64,000 nt of DNA. Source: Fimbriimonas sp. (GTDB taxonomy: Bacteria; Armatimonadota; Fimbriimonadia; Fimbriimonadales; Fimbriimonadaceae). The notes beneath the pieces are model-generated. The model saw only the letters and a program-made list of their open reading frames with translations. It had not been told where the DNA came from and did not search any database. The translations under genes and the position numbers were made by a program. How positions within the stretch are numbered: position 1 is the first letter of the stretch; every line of letters begins with the position of its first letter. Of the stretch, positions 14,705 through 23,895 are shown piece by piece. Where the stretch lies: positions 1 through 64,000 of the forward strand of contig JARLGV010000004.1 in the NCBI GenBank assembly GCA_031292555.1, read 5' to 3'.

Positions 14705-15136
14705 CTAGTTGCCTCCGGGTTTGCCGGCTCCTGCGCCTGCGGCTGCCTTGTTCTTGGCTCTGGCTTCCTTCATGAGTTGGGTGAACTGCTTGACCTGGTC
14801 TTTGGTGAGGATCGCGCGGATTGCCGCTTGGTTGGCTTTACGGATCTCCTTGCTCTTGGTTTTCGCATCCTCTTTCGTGATCTTCCCGGCTTTGACGTCG
14901 GCTCTGACGGCTTTGACTTCACTGGCAGCCTTCGCGATCTGAGCTTTGATCTTCGACTTCTGGTCCTCGGTCAGGTTCAGTTTGTTGAGGATTGTCAGGA
15001 GGTTCTGCTGGCGCTTGGCCTGGGCGATGCCTGCCTTCGGCGTTCCTCCTTGGAGTCCGGCCGCCTGGGCGGAGGCGGATGCAACCACGCTGAACGCGGC
15101 GGCAACGACGATTAGGGTGCTTAGAATCTTCTTCAT
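14705..15136 (-). CDS. Spy/CpxP-like periplasmic LTxxQ protein
   Basis: 143 residues from the ATG at 15136, which begins a typical Sec signal (MKKILSTLIVVAAAFSVVAS..., likely ASA|QA). The mature part is highly charged and helical, with two LTxxQ-type motifs, LTEDQKSKIKAQI and LTKDQVKQFTQL, the hallmark of the Spy/CpxP fold (small periplasmic chaperone-like helical cradle). The C-terminus is an Ala/Lys/Gly-rich tail. The longer frame to 15220 would bury the signal peptide and is rejected. No two-component system is adjacent, so envelope-stress regulation as in CpxP is not implied. Confidence 0.75.
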   Translation of the reverse strand: MKKILSTLIVVAAAFSVVASASAQAAGLQGGTPKAGIAQAKRQQNLLTILNKLNLTEDQKSKIKAQIAKAASEVKAVRADVKAGKITKEDAKTKSKEIRKANQAAIRAILTKDQVKQFTQLMKEARAKNKAAAGAGAGKPGGN

Positions 15137-15284
15137 AGGGGTTCTCTTAATTGTTAAGCCCGGACGGAATGCACGCTCCGGTGCGACTGACCGCAGGCCG
15201 ATGAGGCTAAACGAATACAACGCCCGAAAGTTCGGTACCGGTTGAACCTACCGGCGACTTCCACACGATTTCCATCCGATCCTC

Positions 15285-15290
15285 TAGAAT
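15285..15290 (+). promoter_or_regulatory. -10-like hexamer just before a start codon
   Basis: TAGAAT ends 6 nt before the ATG at 15297. The intervening TGCAGG could be a weak ribosome site but is too close for a normal leader. Confidence 0.4.
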
Positions 15291-15296
15291 TGCAGG

Positions 15297-16193
15297 ATGC
15301 GAGTCCCAAGTCATCACATGCCCTGCTGGCAGTTGGTCACCCTCGTTGGCGTGGTCTCGTCCGCATGCTCCGCCAAACCCAATATGGACACTTCCCTACC
15401 AAGTCCATCGCAGTCGACACCGACTAAACAATTCACCACTATAACGTTCGCCCATCCATCTGGAGTGGCCCTTTCCCTCGACCTGTTCAAACCGAACGGC
15501 AAAAGGAACCTTCACCGGGGAATCCTGCTGATCCACGGTGGTGGATGGGTCGGTGGAATCCGCGGCGAGATGACGGACATCGGGACCCTGCTAGCTCAGA
15601 AGGGCTTTACGTGTGCCTCCGTCGACTATCGGTTCGCACCGAAATGGCCCTGGCCGGCTCAACTGGAAGACGTGCAGCAGGCGGTCCGATTCATGCGCGC
15701 CCACGCCACCGAATGGGGCATCGATCCGAACCACATCGGCGCTTCGGGAATCAGTGCCGGAGGGCACCTTTCGGCGTTTCTTGCCACCACCTATCCGCCG
15801 GGAGCTTCCACGCAAGTCCAAGCAGCCGGCTGCATTTCAAGCATTGACGACCTAAACCTGCCGCTGACACCGGAGGGCGAAACCTACCACATCGTCCAAA
15901 AACTCCTTGGCGAAACTTCAGTGCCAGATCGTGAGCGGCGAACGAAGGCAAGCCCAATCACCTTTTTCGATCGCCGTACGTCGCCGATCCTGTTCATCCA
16001 AGGCAAACAGGATCCTCTCGTCCCATCAGAGCAGACAGCGGTCGCAGTGGCGAAGCTCAAGTCGCTCAAAGTAGCCACCGATGCCATCTACGTGGACGGC
16101 ATGCAGCACGGGATCAATGCATCGGAGCCCAGACAAGCCAAAGCGCTGGAAGCCATGGCGGACTGGATGACCAAACACTTAGCCGTCCGATAG
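15297..16193 (+). CDS. Alpha/beta-hydrolase esterase, probable lipoprotein
   Basis: 298 residues. An N-terminal hydrophobic segment ends in a lipobox-like VVSSAC (Cys about 24), suggesting lipid anchoring. The hydrolase domain (about 45-298) has the HGGGW oxyanion motif (about 80), the nucleophile elbow GISAGG (about 150, Ser nucleophile in GxSxG), the acid Asp in QGKQDPLVPS (about 240) and the catalytic His in DGMQHGIN (about 269). This is the HSL / BD-FAE-type esterase and lipase arrangement. The order and spacing are intact, so activity is likely; substrate unknown. It ends 11 bp from the convergent carA gene. A -10-like TAGAAT ends 6 nt before the start. Confidence 0.8.
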   Translation: MRVPSHHMPCWQLVTLVGVVSSACSAKPNMDTSLPSPSQSTPTKQFTTITFAHPSGVALSLDLFKPNGKRNLHRGILLIHGGGWVGGIRGEMTDIGTLLAQKGFTCASVDYRFAPKWPWPAQLEDVQQAVRFMRAHATEWGIDPNHIGASGISAGGHLSAFLATTYPPGASTQVQAAGCISSIDDLNLPLTPEGETYHIVQKLLGETSVPDRERRTKASPITFFDRRTSPILFIQGKQDPLVPSEQTAVAVAKLKSLKVATDAIYVDGMQHGINASEPRQAKALEAMADWMTKHLAVR

Positions 16194-16204
16194 GCGCACG
16201 TCGT

Positions 16205-17317
16205 TCAGGACGCTTTTCGGTACTGCTGCATCTTCTCGACGAAGTCGGCGAAGTAGGGGCGGGAATCCCATGGGCCAGGCGCCGCTTCCGGATGGTACTG
16301 GATACTGTTGGCATCCTGGTCCTTGATCCGGATGCCCTCGACGGTGCCGTCGTTGAGGTTCAATTGCGTGACCTCGGCGCCGGTGCCGGACAAGGAATTT
16401 GGATCGACGGCATAGCCGTGGTTCTGGCTCGTTATCGTTACCTTGCCGGAGAGTAGGTCCTTCACCGGATGATTCGATCCACGATGCCCAAACTTGAGTT
16501 TGTAGGTGTGACCGCCGACTGCATGGCACAGAAGCTGATTGCCAAGGCATATCCCGAACATCGGCCGACGACCAATGAGATCCTTTACCGTTTGAACCAC
16601 CGGACTTAGGCGCTGCGGATCTCCTGGCCCCGGACTCAGCAGAATGCCGTCTGGGCTATAGGACATCACTTCGTCGGCAGAAGCGGTGGCGGGAACCACG
16701 ATCGGAACACATCCTGCTTTCCAGAACCGGCGCAGGATGTTGTATTTCAGGCCACAGTCGATAACGACCAGCCGAACACGCGCTGGGTCGTCCGGTTCGC
16801 CGATCTCTTGCTTCCCTTCCCGGCCCCACTTGTATGGACCTGCAGTTGTGACGTCGTATACGAAATCGGTGTCGTCGTAGCCTTGGACACTCGCCAGCCG
16901 GGCTTTGCCGGCTTCCATGTCGTCGCAGATGCAGCCCATCGTGACGCCAGCGGTTCGAATCCTCTTGGTAATCGCGCGGGTGTCCAGCCCTTGGATACCG
17001 ACTTTGTTGCGCTCCTTTAAGAGTTGATCCACGCTGCGGGTGGCCCGCCAGTTGCTTGGCACTTCACAAGCCTCTTTGACGATAAGGCCGGTAGGCTGAA
17101 TGCGATCCGACTCAAAGTCGTCGTCGTTGATCCCATAGTTCCCGATAAGCGGATAGGTGAGAAGAACGATCTGACCCGCGTAGCTGGGATCGGTCAGAAT
17201 CTCCTGGTACCCGGTCATTCCGGTGTTGAAAACAACTTCGCCGACCGTTTCGCCCGAGGCTCCGAGTGGTTGGCCGGTATATACGGTTCCGTCGCTGAGG
17301 ATCAGGTAACGCTTCAA
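16205..17317 (-). CDS. carA: Carbamoyl-phosphate synthase small subunit
   Basis: 370 residues, the usual length. It provides ammonia from glutamine to the large subunit for carbamoyl phosphate used in pyrimidine and arginine synthesis. The N-terminal CarA domain is recognised by LSDGTVYTGQPLG and VVFNTGMTGYQEILTDPSYAGQ. The C-terminal class I glutamine amidotransferase domain has the nucleophile in FGICLGNQLL, GGHTYKLKFGHRG, and the His/Glu pair in YHPEAAPGP, so the triad is complete. It is the third gene of the purF / mutase-like / carA unit, 57 bp after the preceding stop. carB is not in the window. Confidence 0.97.
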   Translation of the reverse strand: MKRYLILSDGTVYTGQPLGASGETVGEVVFNTGMTGYQEILTDPSYAGQIVLLTYPLIGNYGINDDDFESDRIQPTGLIVKEACEVPSNWRATRSVDQLLKERNKVGIQGLDTRAITKRIRTAGVTMGCICDDMEAGKARLASVQGYDDTDFVYDVTTAGPYKWGREGKQEIGEPDDPARVRLVVIDCGLKYNILRRFWKAGCVPIVVPATASADEVMSYSPDGILLSPGPGDPQRLSPVVQTVKDLIGRRPMFGICLGNQLLCHAVGGHTYKLKFGHRGSNHPVKDLLSGKVTITSQNHGYAVDPNSLSGTGAEVTQLNLNDGTVEGIRIKDQDANSIQYHPEAAPGPWDSRPYFADFVEKMQQYRKAS

Positions 17318-17374
17318 TCTAGAGGCAGAGGATACCCGTTCCCGCCACCCTCGCGAAAATGCCTATGCTTGAGA

Positions 17375-18511
17375 TCAGGCTTCGATGCCGGCTTGGACGA
17401 GATCCCAGAGATCTCTGGTTGGGATGCTTCGCTCCAGAGTCGACCTTTCGTCGAAAGGATAGAAGCTCTCACCCGACATCCCGGTCTCCGTCGCCGCTGC
17501 AAGCCCGATCGCCGAAGCAGGGATCGGCCCATCGGCATTCACTTGCTCCATCGAAGCCGCAATCAGGGTCAAGCGTGCCGACGAGCGCGGAAGATCGCTC
17601 AACAAAGGACGGACCAATTCTCGGTCGACTTCACGAATAAACCAATCTAGTTCTTCCGCCATGCCATTTGTCCGCAGGTCTGTGGCAACGTCAAGATAAA
17701 TGATCGACAATTGGCGGCTGAGGCATCGATCCGCTATCGACCGAAGCTGGGTTTTTAGTAATTGACCTACTTTGGCTCGATCGACGTGCCGATATCCGGC
17801 GAGTCGAGTCAGCCCGGCAAGTCGCAAGGACACGCTCTCGACGGATGCCGGTTCTCCCCGCCGAATCGCCAGGTTTGGCACTGGTGTTCGCACTCCTTGG
17901 CCCCACGGCCAAAGCACGTTGAGAGGCGGCAGTCCGTCTTCAACACGTCTCTTGTTGATGTCCAGTTCGCCAAGGAGGTTGACTGAGTCGTCGATAAGTC
18001 GTTTCAGGACGGTTTCCCCGTCCCCTTGCGGCAGGTGATCACGATACGACTTGCCGTTGACATCGGTCGGCGAGGTCGTGCCGAGATCGCCCAAGGCCTC
18101 CCAAACAAGCGCATGATCGAAACCGCTGCCCCCCAGGATCGTGAGAAGCTTCGTGTCGAGCCGCTTTGCCAACACCATCAGCCGTCGCATTTCCTCCGCA
18201 TCCCATTCGACGTCCGGTTGAAGGATATTGCCATCCACATAGCTCATCGGGGAAAGGTGGAAATGGGTAGAGCGTTCGGGCGGGTCGAAACCCAACGCGG
18301 AAACGGTCAGTGGGCCTTGCCGGAGCCGCACCGAATCGGGCGACATGCCCAAGATCATCGTCTCGGGGGTCTCCGATGCGGGTGCGGGCGAAACCTTCGA
18401 CAAGTCGCCCATCCGTGCCAAATCGGCCATCGCCTCGCGGCGGTCGCCCATGAAGGAATCTGTTCCCGGCAACGAGATCAAACCGGGCAGTATGAGTACC
18501 GTTCTTCGCAT
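17375..18511 (-). CDS. Phosphoglycerate-mutase-like (ApgM family) protein with degenerate active site
   Basis: 378 residues. Overall order matches archaeal-type cofactor-independent phosphoglycerate mutase of the alkaline phosphatase superfamily. It shows the central NVLWPWGQGVRTPVPNL (family: N-x-x-W-x-W-G-Q-G-x-x-P), SLRLAGLTRLAGY, LDVATDL near the second metal site, and a C-terminal LTLIAAS...GPIPASAIG. However, the first metal-binding DG is replaced (VLILPGLIS), and the expected DHSTP and HxxDPVP metal ligands read AASMEQ and NADGPIP. Catalysis as a mutase is therefore unlikely and a pseudoenzyme or altered activity is inferred. It starts 11 bp after the purF stop, so it is co-transcribed with purF and probably carA. 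Confidence 0.65.
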   Translation of the reverse strand: MRRTVLILPGLISLPGTDSFMGDRREAMADLARMGDLSKVSPAPASETPETMILGMSPDSVRLRQGPLTVSALGFDPPERSTHFHLSPMSYVDGNILQPDVEWDAEEMRRLMVLAKRLDTKLLTILGGSGFDHALVWEALGDLGTTSPTDVNGKSYRDHLPQGDGETVLKRLIDDSVNLLGELDINKRRVEDGLPPLNVLWPWGQGVRTPVPNLAIRRGEPASVESVSLRLAGLTRLAGYRHVDRAKVGQLLKTQLRSIADRCLSRQLSIIYLDVATDLRTNGMAEELDWFIREVDRELVRPLLSDLPRSSARLTLIAASMEQVNADGPIPASAIGLAAATETGMSGESFYPFDERSTLERSIPTRDLWDLVQAGIEA

Positions 18512-18522
18512 GGTGGCGAGAT

Positions 18523-20010
18523 CTACATGTTCAGCAGTTTGAGCTGGCCGTGGCTGATCGCGGCCATCTCTCCCACCGGCCCTTCCTTCTCCAGCGTGTC
18601 CTTACGCAGGTCCTCTGGCACGGGGATCGGATAGTCGCCGTTGAAGCACGCAAGACAAAAGTGATCTTTCGACTTGCCCACCGCGGCCACGGCGCCTTCG
18701 ATACTCAGGTAGCCCAGGCTGGTGGCTCCCAAGTCCTTCTCTAGTTCGGGAATCGTCATCTTCGCTGCCGCCAACTCGGTCTTGTCAGCCATGTCAATCC
18801 CGTAGAAACACGGATGAGTAATCGGCGGAGCGGTTATTCGCACATGCACTTCGGTGGCGCCCGACTCAAACATGAGCTTGACGATTTGCTTGGTCGTGGT
18901 GCCTCGAACGATCGAATCATCCACGAGAATAACCCGCTTGCCCGCAAGGTGATTGTCCAATGCGGTTAGCTTCATCTTGACGCCCATCTCACGCATGCGT
19001 TGATTCGGCGCGATGAAGGTCCGATGAATGTACCGGCTCTTGACCATCCCTTCTCGGAACGGGATCTTGCTCTCCGCGCTGTATCCAAGGGCGGCCGGAA
19101 TGCCGCTGTCCGGTACCGGCACGACGATATCGGCATCCACCGGATGTTCACGAGCGAGTTGTGCCCCCATGCGCTCACGAGCCGTGTAGAGCGACGTTCC
19201 GTACATGTCGGAATCAGGGCGGGCAAAATAGATGAACTCGAACAGGCACATCGCCTTCCGCTCAGACTTGGCGCCGCAGGCAAAACGCATCCCCTGCGAA
19301 TCGATGATCACCATCTCTCCCGGTTCAAGTTCTTGAACCGGCTTGCCACCGACCGGGTGAAATGCGCAGGTTTCACTCGCGATCAGATAGCCGTCTTCGC
19401 CGAGCGTACCGACGACGAGAGGTCGAATACCGGTTGGGTCGCGGAAACCGATCAGCATGCGCGGGGTCAGCACAGTGACGCTGTAAGCGCCCTTTGCCAC
19501 CCTCATGACCTCCCCCACAGCACCCTCGGGTCCCAAGTGCATGTTACGGACGATGATGCGGGCGATCAACTCTGAGTCACTGCTCGAGTCGAACCGTTCG
19601 CCTTTTGCCTCTAGATCGGCACGAAGCTCCTTCGTATTGATGAGGTTTCCGTTGTGGGCGATCGCGATATCGCCAACCTGGCTCTGGCAGAATATCGGCT
19701 GGGCGTTTCGAAGCTCGCTTGACCCCGTCGTGCTATACCGAGTGTGGCCGACCGCAATATGCCCTGGCAAATCGTCGAGAGCCGCTTCGTCGAAGACTTG
19801 GTTGACGAGCCCCATGCCTCGTCGAAAACGCACTTTACTGCCGTCGCTTACCGCGAGTCCGGCTGACTCCTGACCACGGTGCTGAAGCGCGAAAAGCCCA
19901 AAGAACCCAATACGAGCCGCCTCCGGCTTTTCATTGCTGTTCGGCTGCGTGTACACACCAAGTACGCCGCACTCTTCCTTGAGTCTGTCGTCGAGTTCGA
20001 TGACTTCCAC
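18523..20010 (-). CDS. purF: Amidophosphoribosyltransferase
   Basis: 495 residues. It catalyses the first committed step of purine synthesis, glutamine plus PRPP to phosphoribosylamine. The GTG at 20010 is chosen because it gives a 13-residue propeptide (VEVIELDDRLKEE) directly before the catalytic Cys of CGVLGVY, as in processed PurF enzymes; the frame to 20094 would add 28 unlikely residues. The Ntn glutaminase domain shows LQHRGQESAG and GHTRYSTTGSS. The phosphoribosyltransferase domain has the PRPP loop VILVDDSIVRGTT. Cysteines in HPCFYGID and CLACFNGDYP suggest the iron-sulfur, oxygen-sensitive class. It heads the operon with the mutase-like protein and carA. Confidence 0.97.
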   Translation of the reverse strand: MEVIELDDRLKEECGVLGVYTQPNSNEKPEAARIGFFGLFALQHRGQESAGLAVSDGSKVRFRRGMGLVNQVFDEAALDDLPGHIAVGHTRYSTTGSSELRNAQPIFCQSQVGDIAIAHNGNLINTKELRADLEAKGERFDSSSDSELIARIIVRNMHLGPEGAVGEVMRVAKGAYSVTVLTPRMLIGFRDPTGIRPLVVGTLGEDGYLIASETCAFHPVGGKPVQELEPGEMVIIDSQGMRFACGAKSERKAMCLFEFIYFARPDSDMYGTSLYTARERMGAQLAREHPVDADIVVPVPDSGIPAALGYSAESKIPFREGMVKSRYIHRTFIAPNQRMREMGVKMKLTALDNHLAGKRVILVDDSIVRGTTTKQIVKLMFESGATEVHVRITAPPITHPCFYGIDMADKTELAAAKMTIPELEKDLGATSLGYLSIEGAVAAVGKSKDHFCLACFNGDYPIPVPEDLRKDTLEKEGPVGEMAAISHGQLKLLNM

Positions 20011-20036
20011 CCTATTAGTATGGCATTCTTCACAGG

Positions 20037-20100
20037 TCGGGGAGCGGGGCGAGGGTAGCGGGCCGCGGGGTAGAGAGACGGAGTAGCGGAGCAACGCCGG
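20037..20100. repeat. Low-complexity G-rich intergenic patch
   Basis: Repeated GGAGCGGGG / GTAGCGGG / GTAGCGGAG words upstream of purF. The reverse complement (CCGCTAC..CCGCTCC) resembles the C-rich patch at about 20696-20752 on the other side of rpmB. Non-coding; possibly copies of a dispersed degenerate element. Confidence 0.35.
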
Positions 20101-20204
20101 AATGGCGTCGTCACCCTCACCATATGGCTAGGTTTGGTACATGACCCCCTGCAGCCCATTCAGGCAAATACACTGCTCGCCTGCTGCCTTCGACAAACGA
20201 CCCG

Positions 20205-20242
20205 CAAAAAAAGAGCCGTGCCAACGGCACGGCTCTCTTTTT
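20205..20242 (-). terminator. Rho-independent terminator after rpmB (bidirectional form)
   Basis: AGAGCCGTGCC (20212-20222) and GGCACGGCTCT (20226-20236) form a perfect 11-bp stem with an AAC loop. It is flanked by seven A on the left and five T on the right, so it can terminate from both sides. It lies 12 bp past the rpmB stop. Confidence 0.9.
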
Positions 20243-20253
20243 GCTTGATAATC

Positions 20254-20523
20254 CTAGAGGTTGTAGGTCGGCTTGACCAGCCAGGCCTTGGGGACCGGCT
20301 TGAGGCCGCAGGCTACCAGGTTGAACTCTTCGGACTTGATGACCGAAGTGGCAACCTTGAGGCGAACGACGCCATGAGGGGTCTTCAGGCGGACGACCTG
20401 GAGGTTCGGGGACTGCACGCGGTTCTTGTGCGGCGCCTTGTATTTCCAGCCCTGGGAGTGCTGGTTCCGAATATGCTTAGCGTTGTTACCACGCTTGCCG
20501 CTTATCTGACAGATCTTCGCCAT
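20254..20523 (-). CDS. rpmB: Ribosomal protein bL28
   Basis: 89 residues from the ATG at 20523, preceded by GAGGAAG. The frame opens six codons earlier, but the family starts MAKICQISGKR, which fits here. The core RVQSPNLQVVRLKTPHGVVRLKVATSVIKS is typical of bL28, a component of the large ribosomal subunit. It is monocistronic and followed closely by a strong terminator. A single Cys (position 5) remains of the zinc-binding set found in some bL28 proteins, so this is the zinc-free form. Confidence 0.95.
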   Translation of the reverse strand: MAKICQISGKRGNNAKHIRNQHSQGWKYKAPHKNRVQSPNLQVVRLKTPHGVVRLKVATSVIKSEEFNLVACGLKPVPKAWLVKPTYNL

Positions 20524-20695
20524 TTTCTTCCTCAGCCGCATATCTCATGCAGCGAAGAGAAAGTATACCTCCATCCGACACCCAATCGCAACGCGCGTGG
20601 CGCTTGACGAACGCTCCGACGTCCGGATATTCGACTACTTTCAGCGAAAGGCGGGTCCGAACTCACCGGCTTCAAAACGGGATTAGGCACATACG

Positions 20696-20752
20696 ACGTA
20701 TCGGTCCCGCTACACGCGCTTCCCGCTACCCGCGCCCCGCTGCCCGCTCCAG
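20696..20752. repeat. C-rich low-complexity patch
   Basis: Repeats of CCCGCTACxCGCG and CCGCTGCCCGCTCC directly before the ABC-2 permease start. It is similar in reverse complement to the patch at 20037-20100. Possible dispersed intergenic element. Confidence 0.35.
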
Positions 20753-20767
20753 GGTACAACGGGTGCG

Positions 20768-21553
20768 GTGCGGCGGTATTGGCGGGTGTATCGGGCGTTC
20801 TTTTCGAGTTCGCTGGCGCGAGAACTGGAGTTCAAAGCCAACTTCATTGCGAAGTTGGGCCAGAACTTCATGTGGATCTTCTTTTTCGTGATGATCCTCC
20901 TTGTTGTCTACAGCAATACGAAGAGTGTGGCCGGGTGGGGGCGCGGGGACGCATTCGTCCTCGGAGCGACAATCTTCTTAATGAACGCAGTGTTCAACGC
21001 GTTCTTCTTCTCCCTTCAGGACATCCCTTCCCAGATCCGGTTGGGGACGATGGACTTTGTGGTAACCAAGCCGATGGACACCCAGTTCTGGGTAAGTTCG
21101 CGACGTTTCAACTTCGATCAGATTGGCACGGTTTTCGCTGGATTGGTCATGCTGACGATCGGGATTTCCACCTCCCACCTTCATCCAGACCTATTTCAGT
21201 GGCTCGCATTCGCGATTCTTGCCTCCTCCGCCTTGACCATCTTCTACGCGTTCAACCTGAGCCTCATGACGACGGCGATCTGGCTCGTCAGGGTGGACAA
21301 TCTTTGGGTGCTCGGAGAATCGCTGATCGGAGTCGCCCGCTACCCGGTCGACATCTACAATTCCGGCATCCGACGATTCCTCACGAACTTTGTGCCACTC
21401 GCCTTCCTCGCCACCGTGCCGGCACGGCAACTCGTCCATGCCGCGGATGGCGCTGCCGTTGCCGAGGGCGTCGCTTGGTCGGTTGCCGTTCTGCTCGGAT
21501 CGCGTCTCTTCTGGAGAAAGGCAATGCGCAGCTACACGAGCGCGAGCAGTTAA
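20768..21553 (+). CDS. ABC-2 family (DUF990-like) transporter permease
   Basis: 261 residues with about six transmembrane segments. It has the signature arrangement of DUF990-type ABC-2 permeases: an N-terminal RxYRAFFSSSLARELEFKANF helix, LQDIPSQIRLGTMDFVVTKPMDTQFWVSSRR in the first cytoplasmic loop, and the C-terminal FVPLAFLATVPARQLV. These permeases form exporters with a separate ATPase, and often a second permease, usually encoded next door. Neither is adjacent here. The GTG at 20768 follows a TACAAC hexamer by 7 nt. The substrate is unknown. It converges on the lptD-like gene with an 8-bp gap. Confidence 0.8.
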   Translation: MRRYWRVYRAFFSSSLARELEFKANFIAKLGQNFMWIFFFVMILLVVYSNTKSVAGWGRGDAFVLGATIFLMNAVFNAFFFSLQDIPSQIRLGTMDFVVTKPMDTQFWVSSRRFNFDQIGTVFAGLVMLTIGISTSHLHPDLFQWLAFAILASSALTIFYAFNLSLMTTAIWLVRVDNLWVLGESLIGVARYPVDIYNSGIRRFLTNFVPLAFLATVPARQLVHAADGAAVAEGVAWSVAVLLGSRLFWRKAMRSYTSASS

Positions 21554-21561
21554 GGTCAAGG

Positions 21562-23895
21562 CTAGAAACTCGTACCGGTTCCGGTACCAAGAGGCTGACC
21601 GCGGTTCCCAGCGCCAAATCCGGAGTTGAATGGGAAGGCTTTCAAACGGATGAAGAACTGGTAGGTCGTGCCCGGCTCAAAGCCCGAATTCTGACTCATC
21701 ACGGTGAAAACGGCTTCCGCACAGTGCAGATCGTAAGTGAGCGAGTACTGTTGCGAGTCGAACCTCTGCGAGTAGCCGTTGTAGTTTAGAAGCGCGCTTA
21801 TCTTCGTCCGCCCGATCTTCAGTCCGTCGAGGAACATGTTCACGTTGCTCCACGTGTGGGCAATACCGTCGAAGTAGGAACCGAGAGACAGGAACGTCGC
21901 GCCGGCCTTATAGCTCAGATCGAGTCGCACGTTGCTCCAAGCCTCCTGAAACGTATCGTAGGTCGTCTGCGCCCGGAAAAGAAACCTGTCATTTGGCTGT
22001 AACTCCAAGCGCGCCCCAAGCGGCTGCCAGGCAGTCTCATGCTGTTGCAGTCGAAGAATGTCGTACCCAGATTGGGCGCCGATCGAAAGGGACTTGATCG
22101 GCTTGACGCTTAGGTCGGCGGTGGCGAGATTCGTTTGCCCGGTGTAATCGATCGGTAGCGGCGAGTAACCATACGGCCGTAGATAGTTGTAGCGAAGGTT
22201 AATCGACGTAGCCCGGCCAAGCGTGTAGCTTTCGACGTCTCCGAAGTTCAGTACATATTCGGCAGTGCCGTCGGAATACATGCCTTGTTTGAATTCACCG
22301 TTGATCTCGCTGTGGAATGGCCCCGAACTGCGATCCGGATGCTGAAAACCGAGATCGAACATGTCCCGCGTGATCTTTCCGCCCCCAAACTGGTCAGAAA
22401 ACTCGCCGATCGATAGCGACGTCTTGAATGGCCAATTCTGGGCGAACGCTCCTCCGACCAATCGGCGGGCGTCGGAGGTCAGCGTCGCCACCGGAGTCGC
22501 GTCGTTCGAACTCATCACCGCTTGTGTCGTGCCGATCGGGATCTGGCGCTGGTAGGTTAGGTCGGCTGTTGCTTTTGACAATTCGTCTTGGGCGTCGAAT
22601 TTGACGTTCATCGATTCGTTCGTCTGGCTTATCCGCCCCGTATTGCCCTGATACGTCGAGCCGTTGTTTTGGTAGTCCAGCGTGACGTTCGTGGTGATTG
22701 TATTGGTCAGTTTGCGAGTATCCGCCACCGATATCGACTGCGACCCAGTCGAATAGCCGCTCGTCAGGCTGCTCGTCTGGTTCAAAGTGAGCTTCGTCAT
22801 CGCGTTGTTGTGCTGCGGAAAGGTAAGCAGCGCCTGCGTGCTCTCGGTAGTCGACCCTGGATTTACGAGGTAGTTGTTCTGCTCGAAATCCGCCCTGACC
22901 GAAAGCGTTCCCCACGCGAACTTCTGCCGGTGATCGTCGGTGAGCTTGAGCATCTCGCCTGGGCCGGCAATCGTGTAAACCTGCAGCATGCCGTCGACCA
23001 CGCGACTACGATAGAGGTAATCGGCGCCGATTCCCACGCCGAGCTTGGACATCAGGTCGAGGTGAGTGTAGAGCCGGTTCTCGCCCTGTAGCGGGACTCC
23101 GTACCGGAACTTGATGTAATAACCCTCGATAGGGCTTTGACCGATGACCGGCAGGTTGTTGTACGTTCGATCGTCGAGCGGAAACTCAAGATAGGGGATT
23201 CTGAGAACGGTGCGGCCAAAGAGCTTGACACGCGCTTTCCGGAAAACCGCCTTCTTGTTGGGGATGACGATGATGTTGTCTGCGTCGATCTCGTAGTGGG
23301 GTCGAAGGAGGTCGCAACTGGTGATGCCGCCGTAGAGGGTCTCTTGTTCGCTTTTGCTTCCGTACGACTCCAGGCCATGCGCATACAGGTCGGCCACAAA
23401 GGAGCCACCGAGGATGCCCGGCTTCAGGTCCTGCTTCGAAACGTATGCGTGGTACAGTCGCCGGTCGAAGTCGATGGTCACTTGGTCGCCCGAGATCACG
23501 GCGTCCTTGCCGATCACCTTGACGTCGCCTTCCAGCGAGAAGATGTTTGTGGCTAAGTTCCCTTCAATTCGCTCGGCGAACACGTGATAACCGCGAACCA
23601 TGAACTCAGTTGCCCCAGCCATGGCCACTAGATCGCCGTTCTGATAGGAGTGTTTGGCGTGCAGGATCTGAAACGCCTTGTCGTCGATTTCCGGCTCGGG
23701 CGCTTTCTGCGGCGCCGGGTCCATTTGGGGTGGGGCAACCGTTGGTTGAACAGGATTGCCAGTACTCGCGGGCACGACACTTCGCTCTTGGAGGGCACGC
23801 ATGAATCCGCTTGCCGGATCGAACGCCAGCACCTGACCTTGCGCGATCGAAACGCCTCCGAGAAGCACCACTGCGCCAAATGCCCTACGCTTCAC
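21562..23895 (-). CDS. lptD: LptD/OstA-like outer-membrane assembly protein
   Basis: 777 residues from the GTG at 23895, which overlaps the lptF stop by 4 nt (GTGA) and begins a signal peptide (VKRRAFGAVVLLGG..., likely SIA|QG). Residues about 75-210 are an OstA-type beta-jellyroll (ERIEGNLATNIFSLEGDVKV, KDAVISGDQVTIDFDRRLYHAYVS). The rest is a long series of alternating amphipathic strands ending in NSGFGAGNRGQPLGTG, as expected for the LptD barrel. In Gram-negatives LptD inserts lipopolysaccharide into the outer membrane. Its pairing with an LptF/G permease supports a diderm envelope. The 76 residues before the GTG are read from inside lptF and are rejected. Confidence 0.8.
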   Translation of the reverse strand: MKRRAFGAVVLLGGVSIAQGQVLAFDPASGFMRALQERSVVPASTGNPVQPTVAPPQMDPAPQKAPEPEIDDKAFQILHAKHSYQNGDLVAMAGATEFMVRGYHVFAERIEGNLATNIFSLEGDVKVIGKDAVISGDQVTIDFDRRLYHAYVSKQDLKPGILGGSFVADLYAHGLESYGSKSEQETLYGGITSCDLLRPHYEIDADNIIVIPNKKAVFRKARVKLFGRTVLRIPYLEFPLDDRTYNNLPVIGQSPIEGYYIKFRYGVPLQGENRLYTHLDLMSKLGVGIGADYLYRSRVVDGMLQVYTIAGPGEMLKLTDDHRQKFAWGTLSVRADFEQNNYLVNPGSTTESTQALLTFPQHNNAMTKLTLNQTSSLTSGYSTGSQSISVADTRKLTNTITTNVTLDYQNNGSTYQGNTGRISQTNESMNVKFDAQDELSKATADLTYQRQIPIGTTQAVMSSNDATPVATLTSDARRLVGGAFAQNWPFKTSLSIGEFSDQFGGGKITRDMFDLGFQHPDRSSGPFHSEINGEFKQGMYSDGTAEYVLNFGDVESYTLGRATSINLRYNYLRPYGYSPLPIDYTGQTNLATADLSVKPIKSLSIGAQSGYDILRLQQHETAWQPLGARLELQPNDRFLFRAQTTYDTFQEAWSNVRLDLSYKAGATFLSLGSYFDGIAHTWSNVNMFLDGLKIGRTKISALLNYNGYSQRFDSQQYSLTYDLHCAEAVFTVMSQNSGFEPGTTYQFFIRLKAFPFNSGFGAGNRGQPLGTGTGTSF

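Follow-up and report, generated by a model that had tools for sequence, protein, structure and literature searches.

Why does a gene resembling a phosphoglycerate mutase stand among nucleotide synthesis genes, and does its product still work as an enzyme? In the stretch of Fimbriimonas sp. DNA analysed here (64,000 nucleotides, called the window), an earlier note had placed such a gene, here named X, between purF and carA. The placement is confirmed by the reading frame, which runs from an ATG at 18511 to a stop codon at 17375-17377, and by the profile scores of the two neighbours (Table 1). All three genes lie on the minus strand; 11 nt separate the stop codon of purF from X, 57 nt separate X from the start of carA, and no terminator-like site was found in either gap. 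The strand, the short gaps, and the absence of a terminator are consistent with co-transcription of purF, X, and carA. No structured RNA or riboswitch was detected at the gathering score within positions 15000-22000.

Table 1. Features of the X locus and of related loci (positions in the window unless a genome or locus handle is given)
Feature	Position	Strand	Remark
Gene X	17375..18511	minus	378-aa metal-less relative of ThrB2/archaeal-type phosphoglycerate mutase
purF, amidophosphoribosyltransferase, upstream neighbour of X	18523..20094	minus	TIGR01134 509.7 bits, cut-off 350
carA, carbamoyl-phosphate synthase small subunit, downstream neighbour of X	16205..17317	minus	TIGR01368 469.4 bits, cut-off 307.35
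Approximate lid (insert) domain of X, residues about 90-209	17885..18244	minus	conservation concentrated here; columns 100-222 of reference L034
NVLWPWGQG motif, residues 198-206 of X	17894..17920	minus	
P9 of X, replacing the first metal-ligand Asp (DG)	18485..18487	minus	alignment
A319-S320 of X, replacing the Asp-His metal ligands (DH)	17552..17557	minus	alignment
NADGP, residues 325-329 of X, replacing HxxDP; no His	17525..17539	minus	alignment
ThrB-ThrC of the source genome	G000:C77:36782-38712		
Y	L073:3913-6612, L074:5465-8287, 12 more loci		widespread in the order

To which branch of the mutase superfamily does X belong? X matches PF10143 (PhosphMutase) over residues 43-186 with 26.2 bits, above the Pfam gathering cut-off of 21.5, while its scores against TIGR00306 (ApgM; 75 bits) and TIGR02535 (ThrB2, a proposed homoserine kinase; 74.8 bits) lie below the curated cut-offs of 320 and 446.3. 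The metalloenzyme core profile PF01676 gave no match to X at E up to 1, and X is not among the seven matches in its own genome at E up to 0.1. A profile comparison of X with five metal-bearing TIGR02535 proteins gave a probability of 100 (E 8.7e-40, 351 columns). The structure of X predicted from 33 family sequences has a mean pLDDT of 94.0 and a pTM of 0.91, and superposes on PH0037 (2zkt) with Z 30.2 and 3.3 A over 352 residues at 15% identity (Foldseek E 2.0e-19), and on the Thermoplasma acidophilum enzyme with Z 26.9. Thus, the model of X is the complete two-domain fold of the archaeal-type phosphoglycerate mutase. A quick maximum-likelihood tree was built from 84 proteins, the ligand columns being masked (SH-aLRT support only); in it, 53 X proteins form a single clade (99) inside the TIGR02535 branch, and six archaeal-type mutases are separate (100). 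The NVLWPWGQG motif, which the earlier note had pointed out, is present in X, and its WxWGxG pattern in the lid is common to X and the TIGR02535 branch and absent from the six mutases. The earlier description of X as phosphoglycerate-mutase-like is therefore right about the fold, while the suggested comparison with MJ1612-type enzymes needs amending: the tree and the lid motif put ThrB2/TIGR02535 as the nearest branch. Judged from these sequence relationships, X is a descendant of a ThrB2-type metal-dependent phosphotransferase.

Has X kept the metal centre of this family? In an alignment with fully liganded relatives, the seven positions of the metal ligands and the nucleophile (D, S, D, H, D, H, and H) are occupied in X by P, S, T, T, A, S, and A, the residue aligned with the last His being uncertain. 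The identities of the ligands at these positions are taken from the alignment pattern and from general knowledge of cofactor-independent mutases, without a metal-bound structure. The sole match is S46, which aligns with the nucleophile serine, a residue that no more than 8 of the 33 family members retain. Besides the replacements listed in Table 1, DxxxH has its D replaced by T277 and its H by T281. The arginines R75 and R95 (L034 numbering), which presumably hold phosphate in the metal-bearing relatives, are Q65 and H85 in X. It had been proposed from the sequence of the window that the ligands of the DG, DHS, and HxxDP motifs are replaced; this proved correct, and a shift of the ligands to other positions is ruled out by the alignment and by the distribution of histidines. 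X has five His residues in total and none after residue 242. Since the three His ligands lie in the C-terminal core in the relatives and that of X is free of His, no realignment can restore them.

The loss is not a peculiarity of one gene. I found X in 33 of 37 Fimbriimonadaceae genomes (search at E up to 0.001) and, in a wider search, in 74 of 85 (counted by hand from the match list). From these, 53 X proteins were read, namely the 33 from the 37-genome search and 20 of the 41 further matches from the wider one, and every one matches none (36 proteins) or one (17 proteins) of the seven positions. The loss of the metal centre is a trait of the whole family. Among 25 relatives of the same branch read outside the family, 21 have all seven positions and four (L035, L179, L187, and L194) have none or one; the six archaeal-type mutases, from other families of the order, have seven each. 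The group called metal-bearing in the tree and in the conservation comparison was chosen after the ligands had been read, so that its seven out of seven is partly a matter of definition and the unselected count is 21 of 25. The metal-less L035, L187, and L194 group with X at an SH-aLRT of 90, which falls to 59 when L179 is added; the branches are long, and the metals may have been lost once, early on, or several times.

Is X then what remains of a lost ThrB2, functionless and decaying by drift? X evolves fast, has long branches, and is dispensable, being absent from 4 of the 37 family genomes, three of them at least 99% complete; in these genomes nothing X-like was found behind purF. On the other hand, no internal stop codon was found in any tabulated family match of the 37-genome search, and the predicted fold is complete and of high confidence. 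The pN/pS of X is 0.107 in the pair G013/G014 and 0.172 in G015/G018, synonymous sites being saturated in both pairs. The dN/dS is 0.14 at a dS of 0.45 in G166/G167 (237 codons), the one unsaturated pair among the dN/dS values quoted; in most pairs of X, dS is saturated or nearly so. The values for purF in the first two pairs are lower (0.039 and 0.065), indicating a faster evolution of X, by a factor of about 2.7 (2-3). X is under purifying selection, and ratios of 0.11-0.17 in close pairs and 0.14 at unsaturated sites make drift without function very improbable. The earlier suggestion of a pseudoenzyme has thus gained in substance: the predicted fold is kept, the metal centre is gone in 53 of 53 proteins, and selection maintains the gene, all of which support X as a pseudoenzyme on sequence and model grounds. 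Since the whole family keeps a gene without a metal centre under selection, X probably has a new non-enzymatic or retooled role.

Could X supply a missing homoserine kinase or a mutase after all? The source genome encodes a GHMP-type ThrB (217.6 bits, cut-off 168.25) adjoining ThrC (306.9 bits) on contig 77; a phosphopentomutase and a dPGM (237.7 bits, cut-off 81.7) are encoded too. Of the 17 family genomes with a ThrB that passes the cut-off, 15 have X, as do 18 of the 20 without one (37 genomes, Fisher p 1). Thus, X, with purF and carA as neighbours and an occurrence independent of thrB, does not stand in a threonine synthesis context, in contrast to a TIGR02535 gene in another genome (L039 of G039), which lies in a run of hom, thrC, ThrB2, and aspartate kinase genes. 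X as the missing homoserine kinase was rejected for the source genome, because contig 77 encodes ThrB and ThrC together and the occurrence of X is independent of the threonine genes; X as a glycolytic mutase was rejected as unnecessary, a dPGM being encoded. That X is still a homoserine kinase or phosphoglycerate mutase with its ligands in other positions would agree with its descent and fold, but the C-terminal core without His, the ThrB, ThrC, and dPGM genes elsewhere in the genome, and the indifference of X to thrB make this scarcely credible.

The survey also touched on threonine synthesis in the family at large. ThrB and ThrC occur together in 17 of the 37 family genomes, and none of the other 20 has a ThrB that passes the cut-off, so that threonine auxotrophy may be common in Fimbriimonadaceae. 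In the genome G038, which has a threonine synthase (302.2 bits), no gene reaches the ThrB cut-off and the sole ThrB2 relative (L035:6751-8052) is metal-less, which leaves its homoserine kinase unaccounted for. According to the GapMind study (PMC7311316), the Bacteroides TIGR02535 member BT2402 is needed for growth without threonine, but an E. coli thrB mutant was not complemented by it. A genome survey named the TIGR02535 protein ThrB2 (PMC9026213), and the presence of ThrB2 serves for calling threonine prototrophy (PMC7311316, PMC9026213). A separate observation concerns contig 105 of the source genome, where a relative of PhpG (CMP-5'-phosphonoformate phosphonoformyl transferase; 235 bits vs a cut-off of 545) is encoded at L085:8303-9547, directly behind a 405-aa reading frame of unknown function and beside an enolase gene. 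From its sequence, this locus possibly belongs to a phosphonate pathway.

Where in X does the remaining constraint sit? I set the boundary of the lid at columns 100-222 of the reference L034. The columns of X with a conservation of at least 90% are concentrated in the lid (18 of 120, vs 9 of 244 in the core; Fisher p 0.0002), while the metal-bearing relatives show no such bias (29 of 123 in the lid, 75 of 270 in the core; p 0.46). N186, R189, W201, W203, G204, and G206 are kept in 33 of 33 family members and H133 in 29 of 33. In the wider set of 53 proteins, some of the conserved lid residues vary in a few members, and H133 is lost in some. Because the lid closes over the substrate in the parent family, the concentration of the constraint there points to ligand binding by the lid as the most likely mechanism. 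The conserved Trp, Gly, and Pro residues of the lid may serve folding instead of ligand binding.

I therefore prefer, with a rough probability of 0.55, the reading that X is a metal-less pseudoenzyme with a ligand-binding lid whose state is read by a partner. The alignment, the tree, and the predicted structure show that X has lost the dinuclear metal centre and the two arginines of its ThrB2-type ancestry and has kept the two-domain fold. The lid would still bind some small molecule, perhaps a metabolite that is phosphorylated or resembles an amino acid, and would not turn it over; a partner protein would sense whether X is bound or free. In the source genus, the likeliest partner would be PurF or the purine/pyrimidine branch point, a choice that comes from the gene order only, purF lying directly upstream of X in most genomes of the genus.

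The same residues admit two other accounts. X might be a scaffold or stabiliser that binds PurF, CarA, or another protein and no small ligand, its conserved lid residues forming a folding core. Many of the kept lid residues are indeed Gly, Pro, or Trp, and purF and X are adjacent in 20 of the 33 genomes, but the kept polar residues N186, R189, H133, D175, and S176 could line a pocket and some genomes keep purF without X; I regard this account as unlikely, though worth keeping in mind. Alternatively, the lid side of the cleft might have gained a metal-independent activity on a metabolite of the nucleotide pathway. The conserved polar lid residues (H133 in 29 of 33; N186 and R189 in 33 of 33) would suit such a retooled enzyme, as would the metal-less relative L187 in another Armatimonadota family, which lies directly behind purC on the same strand (L196:593-2763, G275). 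However, the conservation analysis revealed no new family-wide cluster of catalytic-looking residues in the core, H133 is lost in some members, and purC adjoins the metal-less relative in one of that family's two genomes. A retooled activity is thus rather improbable.

How firmly is X tied to purF and carA? The gene order was assessed in 33 family X loci with flanks, distances being taken between stop-to-stop frames and not from start codons. Immediately upstream, 20 of them have purF on the same strand. Directly downstream, carA is found in six (G000, G004, G005, G013, G014, and G019) and a gene of about 900 codons, named Y here, in 14. Thus, a universal purF-X-carA operon is rejected: of the gene order that the earlier note had suggested checking in relatives, the purF-X half recurs widely, while the complete triad is limited to the six loci. 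No Y was found anywhere in these six genomes at E up to 1e-20, and carA lies behind Y instead in G006, G025, G029, and L198. From both observations, I infer that purF-X-Y-carA is the older order and that the loss of Y made the triad. At five further loci of the family, X is followed by Y every time, and purF was not found within the stretch. Outside the source genus, purF is mostly not adjacent to X, and Y follows X more often. Other neighbours are not conserved: upstream of purF, the window has genes for an ABC permease and LptD, which recur, among the stretches of relatives, only in G019.

I read an apparent signal peptide and GxDxY repeats in the sequence of Y, which also has C-terminal HEAT repeats; no Pfam or NCBIfam family covered the whole length of the Y members scanned. 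With its apparent signal peptide and repeats, Y apparently is exported, and an exported-looking product encoded behind X gives no hint of a role in nucleotide synthesis. That X and Y form an obligate pair is unsupported, since Y occurs without X in G012, G024, and G028 and is missing from the six genomes with carA behind X. It is the neighbouring purF alone that links X to nucleotide synthesis, and this link is weakened by Y, by the loci without purF, and by the four genomes lacking X. On its gene order, X possibly regulates nucleotide synthesis. In a more specific form, X would be an allosteric sensor whose lid binds a phosphorylated or amino-acid metabolite and which, sharing a transcript with PurF, controls how active PurF is (in some lineages also carbamoyl-phosphate synthase) and so balances purine and pyrimidine synthesis in Fimbriimonadaceae; this is a speculative proposal that I would hold only tentatively.

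If the preferred reading of a ligand-binding pseudoenzyme holds and the lid binds a metabolite, X would be an unrecognised regulator of nucleotide synthesis. No description of a metal-less member of this enzyme family was found in the open-licence PMC texts searched. X also sets a trap for annotation, since X-like genes will probably be labelled as phosphoglycerate mutase or homoserine kinase.

How does X compare with known systems? With TIGR02535/ThrB2 proteins of the BT2402 type, X shares the fold, WxWGxG, the N and R of HPINRR, and a similar C-terminal segment (PFDER/PYDES); it differs in matching none or one of the seven metal and nucleophile positions where they match all seven, in the replacement of R75 and R95, and in not lying beside threonine genes. 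With ApgM (TIGR00306; PH0037, 2zkt), the whole-length fold is shared, while X lacks the metal centre and has W and W where the mutases read have L and R. With phosphopentomutase DeoB and the cofactor-independent mutase GpmI, the likeness is limited to the fold of the core domain (Z about 14-15, about 205 residues); these enzymes have a different lid domain, and their metal ligands are present. The most familiar pseudoenzymes belong to the eukaryotic kinases and phosphatases, and the pseudophosphatases and pseudokinases of the STYX type have folds unrelated to that of X. Here, a metabolic enzyme has lost its metal centre throughout a family of bacteria, with the fold and the lid still under selection. 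What X would share with pseudophosphatases and pseudokinases such as STYX is a kept fold, lost catalytic residues, and a function through binding (PMC10211241).
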